Positions 3,324 through 35,325 of a stretch of DNA of 55,132 nt are shown piece after piece (positions within the stretch are counted from its first letter, which is position 1; each line of letters starts with the position of its first letter). The DNA lies in IMG/VR virus record IMGVR_UViG_3300031369_000003, positions 1-55,132 of that record. One strand, written 5' to 3'. The DNA comes from a virus. A model generated the notes under the pieces. It was not told where the DNA came from. It worked only from the letters and a program-made list of their open reading frames with translations, and made no database searches. Both the position numbers and the translations under genes were made by a program.

Positions 3324-3949
3324 TCGCCTTCCCAAGCCATTGAAAATTCTTTATCACCAAACATTTCTGCCAATCCGGTGATCTGTTTAAGCCTCAACAC
3401 CTCATCGGCATCCATACCTAGTTCTCTGGCGATTTTTTCATCATTCCAGTTTCGCCGTGATAACTCAACCACAATATCGCTCATTGCAGTTACAACGTGT
3501 TTCCCCCTAGCTCTGTTGTGTCGAATGGTTGACGCTATTCTATCAGCCTTTTCTTTCCTCTCGTCGTTAATAGTGGTTACTGGCAAATATCCTTTAATTC
3601 GTTTTTTTACTTCTTCGCATTCTTTACCCACTCGATTTCGATGGAACCCGTCAACCACTTCGATATGGTTGTCGTCTTCCCAAAAACCAACTATGGGTTG
3701 AGTATATCCGTCTTCACTTATCGAATGTTGCAAAAGCTTCATTTCAGGAGGCGCCACGGTGTTAGGGTTATAATCGTTTGCTTCCACTTGATCGGCCTCA
3801 ACCCAAATGACGCAATCAACCGGTTCGTTAACAAACGGGCTTATTTCATGTAATTTTATTCTGACTGCATTTAAAGCCGCAATTTTATTTTTCTCTGGTA
3901 ATTTATTCAGCTCATTTACTAACGCAGACAACGCATCACTGACTCCCAT
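3320..3949 (-). CDS. ParB/Srx-fold protein, IbrB-like
   Basis: 209 residues. The ParB-nuclease-like core shows NDYNPN (58-63), EDGYTQPIV (79-87), the signature VVDGFHRNRVG (98-108) and a basic RHNRARGKH segment. A C-terminal HTH (NDEKIARELGMDADEV) follows. Single-domain ParB-like proteins of this kind pair with PAPS-reductase-like proteins; the named precedent is IbrB/IbrA of E. coli, which activate eib genes. The two genes overlap by 31 bases, with GGAGG inside the upstream gene setting the start, so a joint function is very likely. This is not a partition ParB: there is no ParA gene. Confidence 0.82.
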   Translation of the reverse strand: MGVSDALSALVNELNKLPEKNKIAALNAVRIKLHEISPFVNEPVDCVIWVEADQVEANDYNPNTVAPPEMKLLQHSISEDGYTQPIVGFWEDDNHIEVVDGFHRNRVGKECEEVKKRIKGYLPVTTINDERKEKADRIASTIRHNRARGKHVVTAMSDIVVELSRRNWNDEKIARELGMDADEVLRLKQITGLAEMFGDKEFSMAWEGE

Positions 3950-5133
3950 TTCTGTTTCCTCCGTTTCATGATTTTTAAATATTTATCGTATGCCTCGCTT
4001 TTTGTCATGGTAAAAGATAATCCTTTACACCAATAATCATTTTTTAACAATGATTTACAGATCCTGCGCCATGATGGAACTTTCTTCCCAGCTTCGTCTT
4101 TTGCGTCAGCTTCATCAGGTATCCCATTCGGATAGCCCCGATCATACCACCACTTTAAAAATACCGCTATCTTATTTTCAAAATGATTCCTTGATTTATC
4201 TGGCATACTACATAATAATAATTTGGCAAACGATTCCCAAGTATGCCCATCAGGTTTATTGATTTTGATATTACCCAAAACATTTCCGGATTCTCGGACG
4301 TATAACGCCCCAGAATTGGCACCATTAACTCTAGCGACCACTTTACCCCATGTCTCTGGCTCAATAAGATGAAACAGCCAGAGCCCCTTCCGTTGATCGT
4401 CGCCGTAAGGTTGACATATCCTCATTTGGTGGATTGACAACCCAGCTAACTGCATATAATCGTAAAGTTTGTTGTAAGGCTTATTAAATTTACCGTTGTA
4501 CGTCCAAATGTCTTGCGTTTTCCAGTCATAGATCGGATAAATGTTGTAAAGTCCGTCGCCGCACCAAGTGGTATAGCCTTTGTCGTCGAATTTACTTTTA
4601 TCTCGAACTATTGTCCTGTAACGATTCAAAGATTCATCTGCACGAATTCCAACAAAGCAAGCCGTTAAATCGCCGCCTCCGTACCATTTTCCGAATTGTG
4701 GTACAAATTCCTCAAACTCCATTTTGTAGTGATAAAACGGAAAATAGCTTTGGTCTGTAATTGCCATTTCGGGCGGCTGTCTAATCCAGTCTTTTCCCGG
4801 TTCCCAACATGTCCATTTTGGTTCATACTGGCTAACGGCGTTTCGCAATGCAATAGGTAACGCAACCCAATAAGGTTCGATATGATCTTCATATAGCTTA
4901 TACATATACTGTATATGCTCAATGGTTATTTTGTATTGACCCTCTAAGTCCAAAAGCAAAACTCCAACTTTTTGATTTCGCTTTATTGCTTCGTCCATTA
5001 CCAAATGGAGCATAACGGATGAGTCTTTCCCGCCGCTAAAACTAACATAAATTTTCCTAAACGTGTCAAACGTCCATTCTATTCGCTGCTTTGCAGCTTC
5101 ATAGACATTTATTCCAATCGGGATTTTAGCCAT
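3919..5133 (-). CDS. PAPS-reductase-like PP-loop protein, IbrA-like
   Basis: 404 residues, close to the length of E. coli IbrA. An N-terminal PP-loop (SGGKDSSVMLHL, 33-44) marks the ATP-pyrophosphatase fold shared with PAPS reductases, thiouridine synthases and DndC. The C-terminal half (RICQPYGDDQRKGLWLFH and following) matches the DUF3440 style of IbrA proteins. Catalysis would be adenylation or sulfur-transfer chemistry; the target is unknown. RBS GAGGAGG precedes the ATG. Partner ParB-like gene downstream overlaps it; an unknown 127-residue gene overlaps its 5' end by 25 bases, suggesting a three-gene unit. Confidence 0.85.
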   Translation of the reverse strand: MAKIPIGINVYEAAKQRIEWTFDTFRKIYVSFSGGKDSSVMLHLVMDEAIKRNQKVGVLLLDLEGQYKITIEHIQYMYKLYEDHIEPYWVALPIALRNAVSQYEPKWTCWEPGKDWIRQPPEMAITDQSYFPFYHYKMEFEEFVPQFGKWYGGGDLTACFVGIRADESLNRYRTIVRDKSKFDDKGYTTWCGDGLYNIYPIYDWKTQDIWTYNGKFNKPYNKLYDYMQLAGLSIHQMRICQPYGDDQRKGLWLFHLIEPETWGKVVARVNGANSGALYVRESGNVLGNIKINKPDGHTWESFAKLLLCSMPDKSRNHFENKIAVFLKWWYDRGYPNGIPDEADAKDEAGKKVPSWRRICKSLLKNDYWCKGLSFTMTKSEAYDKYLKIMKRRKQKWESVMRCLR

Positions 5134-31432: not shown

Positions 31433-31586
31433 TATCGGCCTCGCTTTCTTCATGATTTGCTATTTGTTTCAACAAATCGCTTATCGCAGCATGATCTTCG
31501 TTGGTTAAAAGCCCAAGAGCTCTTAATTTTAATAAAGCTAGTTTTAAAAGTGTCCATTGTCTTGGTGTTGGGTATAATGCGTTCAT
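31425..31586 (-). CDS. Helical microprotein (53 aa)
   Basis: GGAGGG RBS. MNALYPTPRQWTLLKLALLK then a Leu-rich helix and an acidic tail. Unknown. Confidence 0.5.
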   Translation of the reverse strand: MNALYPTPRQWTLLKLALLKLRALGLLTNEDHAAISDLLKQIANHEESEADNE

Positions 31587-31741
31587 TTCTTGTCCCTCCT
31601 TTCAAAGTATTTGCCGAGGGCTTCCCTGACAATATCCGATTCTGACCATTTAGGAATTCGTTCCGGCCTGCGCTTCAATTCTTCTTTAATTTTTTTCATT
31701 TGCTCTTCGGTAATTTGAAAATGTTTGCGGACTAGTTTCAT
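31583..31741 (-). CDS. Ribbon-helix-helix-like microprotein (52 aa)
   Basis: KHFQITEEQMKKIKEELKRR then WSESDIVREALGKYFERRDK: strand-helix-helix as in CopG-type regulators. May regulate the accessory operon, whose promoter carries an inverted repeat. ATGA-coupled to its upstream gene. Confidence 0.6.
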   Translation of the reverse strand: MKLVRKHFQITEEQMKKIKEELKRRPERIPKWSESDIVREALGKYFERRDKK

Positions 31742-31923
31742 TTAATTTCTCCCATAAATTTGTTTTTAATATCTTTTAGTAAAGACCCGAAATAAATTAA
31801 AATATAAACAAATAAAAATTCAGCCTCCAAGCTCGGAGTATTATCTAAATTAAAACTTTTTTCACGTCGCTTATAATTTCTAAAATAAAAACCGCAACGT
31901 TTAAATTCGATTAAAACAGTCAA
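31738..31923 (-). CDS. Hypothetical protein, TTG start (61 aa)
   Basis: First gene of the accessory operon; GGAGG 7 bases before TTG. Basic first half (FKRCGFYFRNYKRREK) and an aromatic second half with a short hydrophobic stretch (FLFVYILIYFG). Unknown. Confidence 0.5.
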   Translation of the reverse strand: MTVLIEFKRCGFYFRNYKRREKSFNLDNTPSLEAEFLFVYILIYFGSLLKDIKNKFMGEIK

Positions 31924-32346: not shown

Positions 32347-32799
32347 CTATAACGCCAAAACCCCTAAAATAGTGGCTATAACGGTTATTATATTCCGCTG
32401 AATAACAAGCTTCCTAATCTTTGCTTTGACCTCTTTTTCGTACTGTTTGAAGGATTCTTCGAGCGTCTTTAAATCCGTCTCCGCTTGACTCAATTTCTCG
32501 GATAGTTGTATTGATAGATTCTCGGATTTCTCGATTTGACTTTTCAATGTCGTTAGTTGATTTTGCAGCGTCTGAAGCTGCTTTTCCTGCCGCTCCAATT
32601 GTTGTTTTGAGGTCTGCAAGCTGTTTTTGACTTGATTGTAATTGCTCTCTAAGTTGTCGATTATTTTTAGCAATTGATTCAGCTCTGATTTGTATACTTT
32701 GTAACTGCCCTCGGCTTGACAGGAGACAGAGACAATAACCAAGAGCAAAAGCGACAATAGCAATGATAATGTAAGTTTTATATTGCAAATTTCAGCCAC
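32347..32799 (-). CDS. Lipobox spanin (o-spanin/u-spanin-like), overlapping frame
   Basis: 150 residues. N-terminal signal with lipobox-like SVSC (Cys27; -3 Ser is suboptimal), then a long leucine/glutamine coiled coil (residues about 38-125), then a C-terminal hydrophobic segment (NIITVIATILGVLAL). An outer-membrane lipoprotein joined by coiled coil to an inner-membrane anchor is the unimolecular spanin (u-spanin) design. GTG start overlaps the end of the amidase gene; internal TTG starts at residues 12-20 are possible. It lies in the +1 register relative to the other spanin frame, as Rz1 does to Rz. Confidence 0.7.
   Translation of the reverse strand: MAEICNIKLTLSLLLSLLLLVIVSVSCQAEGSYKVYKSELNQLLKIIDNLESNYNQVKNSLQTSKQQLERQEKQLQTLQNQLTTLKSQIEKSENLSIQLSEKLSQAETDLKTLEESFKQYEKEVKAKIRKLVIQRNIITVIATILGVLAL
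32414..32788 (-). CDS. Rz-like inner-membrane spanin (i-spanin), overlapping frame
   Basis: 124 residues. One N-terminal membrane span (YIIIAIVAFALGYCLCLL, 6-23) followed by a periplasmic coiled-coil-like region rich in Gln/Lys/Ala, a typical Rz layout. TTG start with GGGGGTGG 7 bases upstream. It lies completely inside the 32347-32799 frame. Both belong just after the amidase, the normal spanin position. Spanins act only in hosts with an outer membrane. Confidence 0.7.
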   Translation of the reverse strand: MQYKTYIIIAIVAFALGYCLCLLSSRGQLQSIQIRAESIAKNNRQLREQLQSSQKQLADLKTTIGAAGKAASDAAKSTNDIEKSNREIRESINTTIREIESSGDGFKDARRILQTVRKRGQSKD

Positions 32800-33229
32800 C
32801 CCCTAACTTTCGTGCTACCATCTGCCGAAGTTTTACCATCGGGAATTTACTACCCGGACAAGTTTTGTAACTGGCGTATTTGTGATGAGTTTCGATGTCA
32901 TCCGGCCTTAATCCATATCTTTTGCAAATATCAGTACACAGTCCGACCAGCACTTTTAACGCCCATTCCGTAGGTTCTGTGAGGTCATAATTGCCCACGA
33001 CGCAAACGCCAATAGATTTATCGTTCATTCCTTTGCAATGTGCCCCAACAACGTTTTCTGACCGGCCTTTCTGCACTACAATTTTGTCGCCGACATTTTC
33101 AACCCCCCAATGATATCCGATGTCCGTCCAACCTTTTTCCTGAATGTGGTATCGGCGAATAGCTTTCCAATCATTAACGGTCTGATCTTTTGTCAAACTA
33201 TGATGGATAATAATTTTAGTTGCCTTCAT
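32792..33229 (-). CDS. Endolysin: N-acetylmuramoyl-L-alanine amidase (Amidase_2/PGRP)
   Basis: 145 residues, catalytic domain only, no wall-binding domain. Zinc-binding IIIHHS (7-11), GYHWGV, HCKGMNDKSIGVCVVGNYD, and ETHHKYASYKTCPG (His and Cys ligands). Lack of a wall-binding module fits a host with thin, outer-membrane-covered peptidoglycan. Located between holin and spanins. Confidence 0.93.
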   Translation of the reverse strand: MKATKIIIHHSLTKDQTVNDWKAIRRYHIQEKGWTDIGYHWGVENVGDKIVVQKGRSENVVGAHCKGMNDKSIGVCVVGNYDLTEPTEWALKVLVGLCTDICKRYGLRPDDIETHHKYASYKTCPGSKFPMVKLRQMVARKLGGG

Positions 33230-33770
33230 GCTTGCCCCCTATATCTTCCAATTTGTCCTTCGTAACCCCCAAAATCTTCTTTATAATCGGGATATTAATC
33301 TTTTTCAGCTTGCATATTTTGTCGACATTTTCAAGGATCGAATACCCTTCTGTAAGCATGATCGCCCCTTCGATAATTCCCTGAAGAAAAGCAGTAAGCG
33401 CTACTTGCCCACATTGATGACCTAAAAATAATAGCAGATAGTAAATCATCAATTTAACCAAACCATGATACATTCGACGTGATTCTGGAACCACAGCAGG
33501 ATTCGTTCTAGCGTGGTAAAATCCCGTTGCCGTGTCGGTCAACCACAAACACATTACTGTTCCGTATGCTGGACGGAATGAACCATACATGACCCTTAAA
33601 ACCCCAATTAAAAACCCGGCAATAAATTTCCATACCGGGTACTCTGCTAGCCTCTGAAAAAAATGTCCGAACACATCCCATTCTTTCAATCTATCGTCAC
33701 CCCTCGCCTTTTGTTGAAGCGATGACAGACACCCATTTAAAATTTGATTGTTATTATTGGCTTCAGACAC
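33216..33770 (-). CDS. Holin (phage holin family 4 / Cph1-like)
   Basis: Multi-span membrane protein; LTDTATGFYHARTNPAVVPE S and GLVKLMIYYLLLFLGHQCG are the family's conserved centre. About 185 residues, long for holins of this family because of a hydrophilic N-terminus (about 50 residues). GTG 33770 is 8 bases from AAGGAG; ATG 33776 and GTG 33779 are too close to it. Overlaps the amidase gene by 14 bases. Confidence 0.85.
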   Translation of the reverse strand: MSEANNNNQILNGCLSSLQQKARGDDRLKEWDVFGHFFQRLAEYPVWKFIAGFLIGVLRVMYGSFRPAYGTVMCLWLTDTATGFYHARTNPAVVPESRRMYHGLVKLMIYYLLLFLGHQCGQVALTAFLQGIIEGAIMLTEGYSILENVDKICKLKKINIPIIKKILGVTKDKLEDIGGKHEGN

Positions 33771-33806
33771 TATCATCACTCCTTATTATTTTCCATAATT
33801 TACATA

Positions 33807-34083: not shown

Positions 34084-35325
34084 TCACCTCACATTTTGAT
34101 TATAAATTGGTGTCGGGTCGAAAAGTTGTACTGTGTTGGCGTCGTTGGGCATTAAGTTATCAAAATCGGGATCGGCTGTCCGGGCAATGTCGGATAGACG
34201 ATGTTTGCCAAAACGGGTGTTGGCAAAATTATATCCAGTTAGACTTCCCATGTAACCATAGATATTAAATCCCGATGGTAAATTAGGCGTTGATATTGTA
34301 CCCGTCGCAACTTTTGTACATGTTGACAAGTTCCAAAGCTCAATTTTCGCCTCAATCACTGCCCATGGAATTTTATAATAATAAAAATCATTCGGAGTTA
34401 ATGAATCAGCAATAGAAACTTGTGTCGCAACACCAGCGTCATTATACGTTCTTAAATACCAAAGGCTACTGGCGGAGTCATGATTCAAACGCATGGCGAG
34501 ATCCGATGTACTATCGGTTTTAAAAATACTAAATATATTGGCAAAACTACCAACACCTATTCTTTTAACAACATCCGTAATCTCCACAACCCCTTCAATC
34601 GTCCCCTCTGACACCGATAGTCCTGCCGTCGGCATTGTCAGGGGTTCGGCGGCGCGGGGAGAATCCGGCATACAAAATGAGGTTGGGTAAGCTTTTTGCG
34701 AGAGTTTTAGATCATCAGCGTATATTGATACGTTTTGGATGTTTTGTGCTATATTAATTCTCATAAAACATTGCGTAGCGCCACTAGGAATTGTAATGGT
34801 TACGACCAACTTTTGCCATGTATCAAAAGCGGTTGGAGATAAACTTTTTGATTCAGTATACGATGATACATAATAAACAGCATTTAAATATATATTAGAC
34901 AATGTAATACCACTGGTGCTCGGAACATATACCCATGCTGAAAATGTATATACTAATCCGGCAGTCAAAGTATTTAGAGATGTTGTCTCTCCCATTTGAT
35001 AATATCTATTTGAAAAACTGGTGGTACCGGTTGTCAATTTTAAAGACTTCGAACCAAAATTATAATAATCTGTACTTGATACTGAAATTAAATATGCGTC
35101 GTATCCATAGCCATTAAGTTTTGGTTTGTTAAATTCACAATCCGGATTTATGATTAAATTACTTGTCGCCTCCTCCACCCATGTGACCCATCCAACTCCA
35201 TCCACATATTCTAGCCTCGGCAATCCCGGCAACGCAATCCTGCCCAGTGAATCAATAGCCTCTGAGTTGCGGCTAAACGTCGCGCCCGTTATAGTTGTGC
35301 GTCTCGGTGGTGATAATATCCTCAT
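34084..35325 (-). CDS. Tail fibre / receptor-binding protein with lectin-like domains
   Basis: 413 residues. Short N-terminal ATFSRNSEA segment, then a CBM_4/9-like beta-sandwich (FGSKSLKLTTGTTSFSNRYY ... YTFSAWVYVPSTSG ... DTWQKLVVTITIPSGATQCF), then a concanavalin-like C-terminal domain (FANIFSIFKTDSTSDLAMRL). Carbohydrate-binding adhesin, likely the host-recognition protein. Located last in the tail module. Confidence 0.75.
   Translation of the reverse strand: MRILSPPRRTTITGATFSRNSEAIDSLGRIALPGLPRLEYVDGVGWVTWVEEATSNLIINPDCEFNKPKLNGYGYDAYLISVSSTDYYNFGSKSLKLTTGTTSFSNRYYQMGETTSLNTLTAGLVYTFSAWVYVPSTSGITLSNIYLNAVYYVSSYTESKSLSPTAFDTWQKLVVTITIPSGATQCFMRINIAQNIQNVSIYADDLKLSQKAYPTSFCMPDSPRAAEPLTMPTAGLSVSEGTIEGVVEITDVVKRIGVGSFANIFSIFKTDSTSDLAMRLNHDSASSLWYLRTYNDAGVATQVSIADSLTPNDFYYYKIPWAVIEAKIELWNLSTCTKVATGTISTPNLPSGFNIYGYMGSLTGYNFANTRFGKHRLSDIARTADPDFDNLMPNDANTVQLFDPTPIYNQNVR

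Follow-up and report, generated by a model that had tools for sequence, protein, structure and literature searches.

Introduction

Published two-component spanins are encoded by gene pairs that are embedded, overlapped or separated, and their o-spanin is a lipoprotein (PMC6139136). Embedded o-spanin genes mostly start at 0.4-0.5 of the length of the i-spanin gene (PMC6139136), and u-spanins, which are encoded by single genes, carry a lipobox and are beta-rich (PMC6139136). In a 2025 survey of viral lytic proteins, in which o-spanins were filtered on the lipobox, spanins were absent from phages of Gram-positive hosts (PMC12596118). The literature that we searched contained no description of spanins in phages of Negativicutes, nor of phage exit from diderm Firmicutes.

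The present work concerns two frames, designated i and o, that overlap over most of their length in a viral sequence. We propose, as the probable interpretation, that they are real overlapping lysis genes whose products form a two-component spanin-like complex that breaches the outer membrane of diderm Firmicutes.

Results

Organization of the lysis cassette and start sites

The window, that is the whole stretch of DNA analysed, comprises the 55,132 bases of a viral record, in which the lysis genes all lie on the minus strand, tail genes being followed by a holin gene, an amidase gene and the overlapping i and o frames. The holin (33216..33779, minus strand) belongs to the Phage_holin_4_1 family (PF05105, E=4.6e-10) and the endolysin (32792..33229, minus strand) is an N-acetylmuramoyl-L-alanine amidase (Amidase_2; PF01510, E=1.2e-19). 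The i-frame (32414..32788, minus strand), an i-spanin-like gene, encodes 124 amino acids from a TTG start, and the o-frame (32347..32799, minus strand) encodes 150 amino acids from a GTG start, with an alternative ATT start at 32788-32790. An earlier note on this DNA had described two completely overlapping frames on one strand, with coordinates and lengths that proved correct, and had placed the frame for which it proposed a lipobox (o) at +1 relative to the Rz-like frame (i), as in lambda Rz/Rz1; this register was confirmed.

The note also had o extending beyond both ends of i. This is certain at the 3' end, where o outruns i by 67 nt in the window; the o-only part past the i stop (32350..32413, minus strand) encodes the end of a basic segment and a hydrophobic tail (QRNIITVIATILGVLAL), an assignment based on the sequence, on the layout in relatives and on the substitution pattern of the tail. 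At the 5' end, the extension hinges on the choice of the GTG at 32799, which is itself contained in a Shine-Dalgarno-like sequence, AGGGGGTG (32797..32804, minus strand, read from the sequence), located 8 nt before the TTG of i. In a second virus, L020 (see below), the o start (ATG 3992) aligns with the ATT at 32788-32790 of the window. In the family, start sites were assigned by rule; the o and i starts were within 20 nt of each other in 79/98 members, the commonest offset being +4 nt, as in ATGAATG, and the o start picked was at or before the i start in only 19/98, so the 'inverted nesting' proposed earlier does not describe the family. The o gene spans a median of 98.5% of i (98 members), and translation of both may begin from a single ribosome-binding site. 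With the o stop a median of 64 nt downstream of the i stop, the hydrophobic tail is encoded by the sole stretch that is not shared. As the note had stated, no standard example is known of this layout, which matches none of the published embedded, overlapped or separated architectures (PMC6139136).

Two other features of the window were observed. A tail gene beside the lysis module (34084-35325) and its counterpart in L016 (13805-14971) are near-identical over their first 55 residues, divergent in the middle and conserved at the end, as in a swapped receptor-binding part. The gene at 3919-5133 combines a PAPS reductase domain with DUF3440 (E=1.8e-35 for the latter), an unusual cargo for a phage.

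Relatives of the pair and their hosts

Scanning viral contigs with o identified a second virus, L020, in which o is 49% identical and i is in the same register, with 41% aligned identity; similar scans with the holin and with i yielded no relative. No relative of the pair was found when i, o, the holin and members of the family were compared with named records of phages and plasmids. Two further cassettes, L023 and L026, came from a profile search in a broad sample of the phylum, and a search in the class of one of these two genomes (380 genomes) detected about a hundred full-length members. The first profile search had returned mostly coiled-coil noise, with about 150 genomes showing partial or roughly 400-amino-acid matches; as E-values are inflated by coiled coils, only matches that reached the C-terminal end and showed the second frame were counted. 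One genome (G492) carries four separate copies of the cassette on a single contig, C6 (L051, L074, L075 and L076), which is consistent with this host having several related prophages.

Of the genomes first tested, the two with the cassette had LpxC and four others did not. Among 398 genomes of the phylum, the four full-length o matches (E<=2.5e-21), one of which has an internal stop, were all found within the 84 LpxC-positive genomes, which has a probability of about 0.002 by chance. The diderm host implied in the earlier note is thus supported by LpxC in the hosts tested. LolA was absent from 14/14 cassette host genomes, in searches in which the controls responded. Negativicutes are reported to be devoid of LolA and LolB, and Halanaerobiales to have LolA (PMC5007114); for Veillonella and other diderm Terrabacteria, no outer-membrane lipoprotein and no homologue of the Lol proteins is known (PMC10665443, PMC11784454). 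The presence of LpxC together with the absence of LolA points to Negativicutes, and we infer that the cassette hosts belong to this one class of diderm Firmicutes.

For the window phage itself, the portal protein is 63% identical to a portal encoded on contig C29 of genome G551, in a prophage of the same class, and this contig carries a cassette (L083) 20 kb from that portal. On sequence grounds, the window phage fits a Negativicutes-type host group. A portal match of 50% in a Desulfosporosinus MAG (L015) was considered as host evidence and rejected, this genome having neither LpxC nor the cassette. Of two other portal relatives, one (L010) is on a contig that stops just before the lysis cassette, and the other (L014) differs in its tail module and its endolysin, so that neither provided a usable lysis cassette.

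Both frames are under purifying selection

With the o protein of the window fixed and synonymous codons resampled, the i-frame was open in 0/20,000 trials; with the i protein fixed, the o-frame was open in 0.4% of resamplings. The latter figure, taken for the window alone, and the fact that repetitive Leu, Gln and Lys codons can lower the stop density in other frames could favour the view that a single frame is coding and that the other is a chance opening resulting from the coiled-coil composition of its partner. In the family, however, a fixed 99-codon core had the i-frame open in 95/101 members, compared with 2.2 expected from synonymous resampling of o, while the third frame was open in 0/101. 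Motifs are conserved in both proteins, and the conditional substitution tests described below were significant in both directions. A chance open frame is therefore refuted for the family by the open-frame counts and the substitution tests, and we give it practically no credence. At 111 loci, nearly all had an i-frame that was open, in the same register and with a stop shortly before that of o, the third frame being broken. One frame full of stops in the relatives, named in the earlier note as the observation that would count against two genes, was looked for and did not occur. Four loci (L103, L109, L125 and L126), in which the o-frame is cut by stops and i is still recognisable, look like decaying prophages.

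The codon-substitution analysis that had been suggested in the earlier note was run on 17 independent close pairs, a small number. For codon positions 1, 2 and 3 of o, differences per codon were 0.092, 0.116 and 0.169 in the overlap and 0.094, 0.053 and 0.230 in the o-only tail, where substitutions were mainly at position 3. Between overlap and o-only tail, the shift from position 2 to position 3 is significant (p=1.3e-5), and such a shift would result from a constraint of i on its own first positions. A conditional test then used a neutral expectation with a transition/transversion rate ratio of 2.8. Among o-synonymous changes, those that introduce a stop in i were depleted (2.5/334.5; 0.7% compared with 9.5% expected, p=4e-12), and those also silent in i were enriched (20/334.5; 6% compared with 1.9% expected, p=1e-5); changes silent in both frames were 4.9-fold enriched. 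Reciprocally, 56% of i-nonsynonymous changes were synonymous in o, compared with 35% expected (p=2e-22). In conclusion, purifying selection acts on both i and o, and the two frames are both coding, as originally proposed.

The pair follows unrelated endolysin genes

Comparison of 72 immediately upstream genes with Pfam identified Amidase_3 (25 genes), GH25 (13), Amidase_2 (10), a VgrG3-like domain (4) and three others once each, nearly all of these being endolysin or lysozyme families; the next gene further upstream matched Phage_holin_4_1 in 21/56 cases. The cassette of L020 sits behind a different, glucosaminidase-type endolysin. Among prophages with a recognisable endolysin, most have it in front of the i/o pair. 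The location of the pair in the window after a holin and an amidase, with endolysin and holin genes upstream in many relatives, agrees with the lysis role assigned in the earlier note. That the same conserved pair occurs with several endolysins unrelated to one another speaks for a lysis function distinct from theirs. Downstream of the cassette, two small genes are near-identical in the window (31583-31923) and in L020 (5421-5767) in spite of their unrelated endolysins, suggesting module exchange.

The i protein resembles an inner-membrane spanin component

The N-terminus of i is a transmembrane span in the window (YIIIAIVAFALGYCLCLL), and in the family the uncharged run of this span has a median length of 20 residues. 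It is followed by a helical periplasmic part in the structure model. The window protein has the C-terminal motif RILQTVRKRGQ, and many i proteins of the family finish with a motif resembling ILxxVRxRG. Weak matches of the window protein to the Rz-like spanin PHROGs 214, 739 and 89 were obtained, with the N-terminal span in register; with E-values of about 1e-4 to 1e-5 the resemblance to known spanins is weak, and broad matching is usual for coiled coils. A PHROG of unknown function, 18860, was matched by 9/59 i members (best E 2.8e-7); some of the i family has thus been catalogued before, with no function assigned. The N-terminal span and the helical periplasmic domain that characterize the i component of a two-component spanin are both present in i.

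The o protein and its hydrophobic tail

The o protein is composed of a signal peptide, a long coiled coil, a basic segment centred around QRN and a short hydrophobic C-terminal tail. A common motif, YxITExEL, opens the mature part in the family. The AlphaFold2 model of the window protein is all helix over residues 2-149, with a mean pLDDT of 90. No match to PHROGs was found for any of 80 o proteins at 1e-6, no meaningful NCBIfam model was matched by o proteins, and only sub-threshold coiled-coil matches to Pfam were obtained with the window protein; o is described by no Pfam, PHROGs or NCBIfam family.

The tail has an uncharged hydrophobic run of 12 residues (11-16), preceded by 4-5 basic residues, and a poor insertion score; a Lys or Arg is at or beside the C-terminal end of o in 93% of members. 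No amphipathicity was found in the tail (moment 0.19, compared with 0.23 for shuffled sequences). In two members, L117 (genome G469) and L123 (G545), a beta-strand-like tail replaces the hydrophobic one, and about 130 nt separate the i stop from the later o stop. The L123 protein ends with TVILGYKFKF, which resembles the end of an outer-membrane protein, a likeness that is suggestive only. Neither of these two tails matched Pfam or PHROGs, and PDB sequences contained no match to the one in L123.

The hydrophobic tail could also stop or anchor o in the inner membrane. If so, both proteins would reside there, i by its clear inner-membrane span, and next to holin and endolysin genes they could affect the timing of lysis as holin regulators, or act on the tether between the wall and the outer membrane, rather than work as a membrane-fusing spanin. 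We consider this unlikely: the uncharged run of o is shorter than the span of i and is poorly scored for insertion, L117 and L123 have beta-strand-like tails instead, and the cassette is confined to LpxC-positive genomes in the phylum sample, a restriction that would be unnecessary for a pure holin regulator. For an ordinary inner-membrane span, the length and the insertion score of the tail are both too low; the tail is instead a candidate for contact with the outer membrane. Its replacement by beta-strand-like sequence in two members supports this reading, in a suggestive way only.

A lipobox is not conserved in o

The earlier note had proposed Cys27 of o (codon 32719..32721, minus strand) as the lipidated residue of a lipobox. 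Its context, S-V-S-C, fails the strict consensus, defined as [LVI][ASTVI][GAS]C, and a strict lipobox is present in at most 4/98 o members, in two of which it lies within the hydrophobic core. Many members have instead SFA, CSA or ASA sites of the signal-peptidase-I type, some with no Cys at this position. In members such as L061, a WYLFG stretch of i yields the GICSA of o when read out of frame, which suggests that the frequent Cys in o may partly reflect the i protein. A periplasmic Cys is present in 56/98 i+o pairs, compared with 507/528 known two-component spanins (PMC6139136).

These observations bear on the proposal that o is a true outer-membrane lipoprotein, or a u-spanin like that of T1 with an N-terminal lipid and a C-terminal span, the system being then an ordinary one, of the Rz/Rz1 type or a u-spanin, with an unusual overlap. 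Many members do have a Cys near the end of the signal peptide, VTAC in L020 is a valid lipobox, a loose pattern is matched by about 11/102 members, and an unusual lipobox can be functional, as AWAC demonstrates (PMC6139136). Nevertheless, the rarity of strict lipoboxes, the signal-peptidase-I-like sites, the lack of LolA in the hosts and the predicted all-helical structure of o, as opposed to beta-rich u-spanins, make this proposal quite improbable. As the lipobox is not conserved, an outer-membrane lipoprotein or a T1-type u-spanin is unsupported, and a lipoprotein nature of o was rejected for the family. The suggestion made in the earlier note of a T1-like u-spanin, possibly evolving over an Rz frame, is likewise unsupported, o being predicted all-helical and devoid of a conserved lipobox and i being conserved under selection.

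Discussion

From these data we infer a spanin function, an o-i complex, contact with the outer membrane and membrane fusion or rupture. In the model that we propose, holin and endolysin would act first and the i/o pair would then break the outer membrane. The i protein would use its N-terminal span as an inner-membrane anchor and reach into the periplasm, and o, exported by a signal peptide that in most members has a signal-peptidase-I-like site and not a lipobox, would pair with i through helices. The basic-hydrophobic tail of o would replace the lipid anchor of classical o-spanins and engage the outer membrane, and collapse of the helices would draw the inner and outer membranes together. 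Replacement of a lipid by a tail makes sense because Negativicutes are reported to be devoid of the Lol system and of outer-membrane lipoproteins: without a lipid, o must reach the outer membrane another way, and the conserved tail is the best candidate. Whether the pair represents an undescribed, non-lipoprotein type of spanin for diderms that have no outer-membrane lipoproteins, with coextensive genes, a near-common start and a basic-hydrophobic, rarely beta-strand, tail that fixes o to the outer membrane, is in our opinion an evenly balanced question.

The family provides about a hundred concrete candidates for outer-membrane lysis in one class of diderm Firmicutes, and shows how a phage might break the outer membrane where the usual lipid anchor is unavailable. 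Moreover, gene pairs that overlap almost completely, with selection demonstrated on both reading frames, are rare, and this is one of them.

Like lambda Rz/Rz1 and other two-component spanins, the pair consists of an inner-membrane helical protein and a periplasmic partner encoded in the +1 frame, behind holin and endolysin genes. In lambda, however, Rz1 is a short lipoprotein nested in Rz, whereas here o is longer than i, the starts being most often offset by +4 nt; furthermore, the C-terminus of o is a hydrophobic tail, no lipobox is conserved in o, and i is only weakly similar to Rz families. As in the overlapped spanins (P2 LysB/LysC, DFL12phi1 and T5), the second gene runs past the stop of the first, but the overlap is 70 bp in T5 and 116 bp in DFL12phi1 (PMC6139136), whereas essentially the whole i gene is inside o. 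The T1 gp11 u-spanin similarly combines an N-terminal export signal and a C-terminal hydrophobic segment in one protein; proteins of the gp11 type have a lipobox, a beta-rich periplasmic domain and no partner, whereas o has no lipobox, is predicted to be all-helical and is paired with a conserved i. The pair thus appears to work like a two-component spanin but lacks the lipoprotein that characterizes these systems, and we have therefore termed it spanin-like, outside both the Rz/Rz1 and the u-spanin families.
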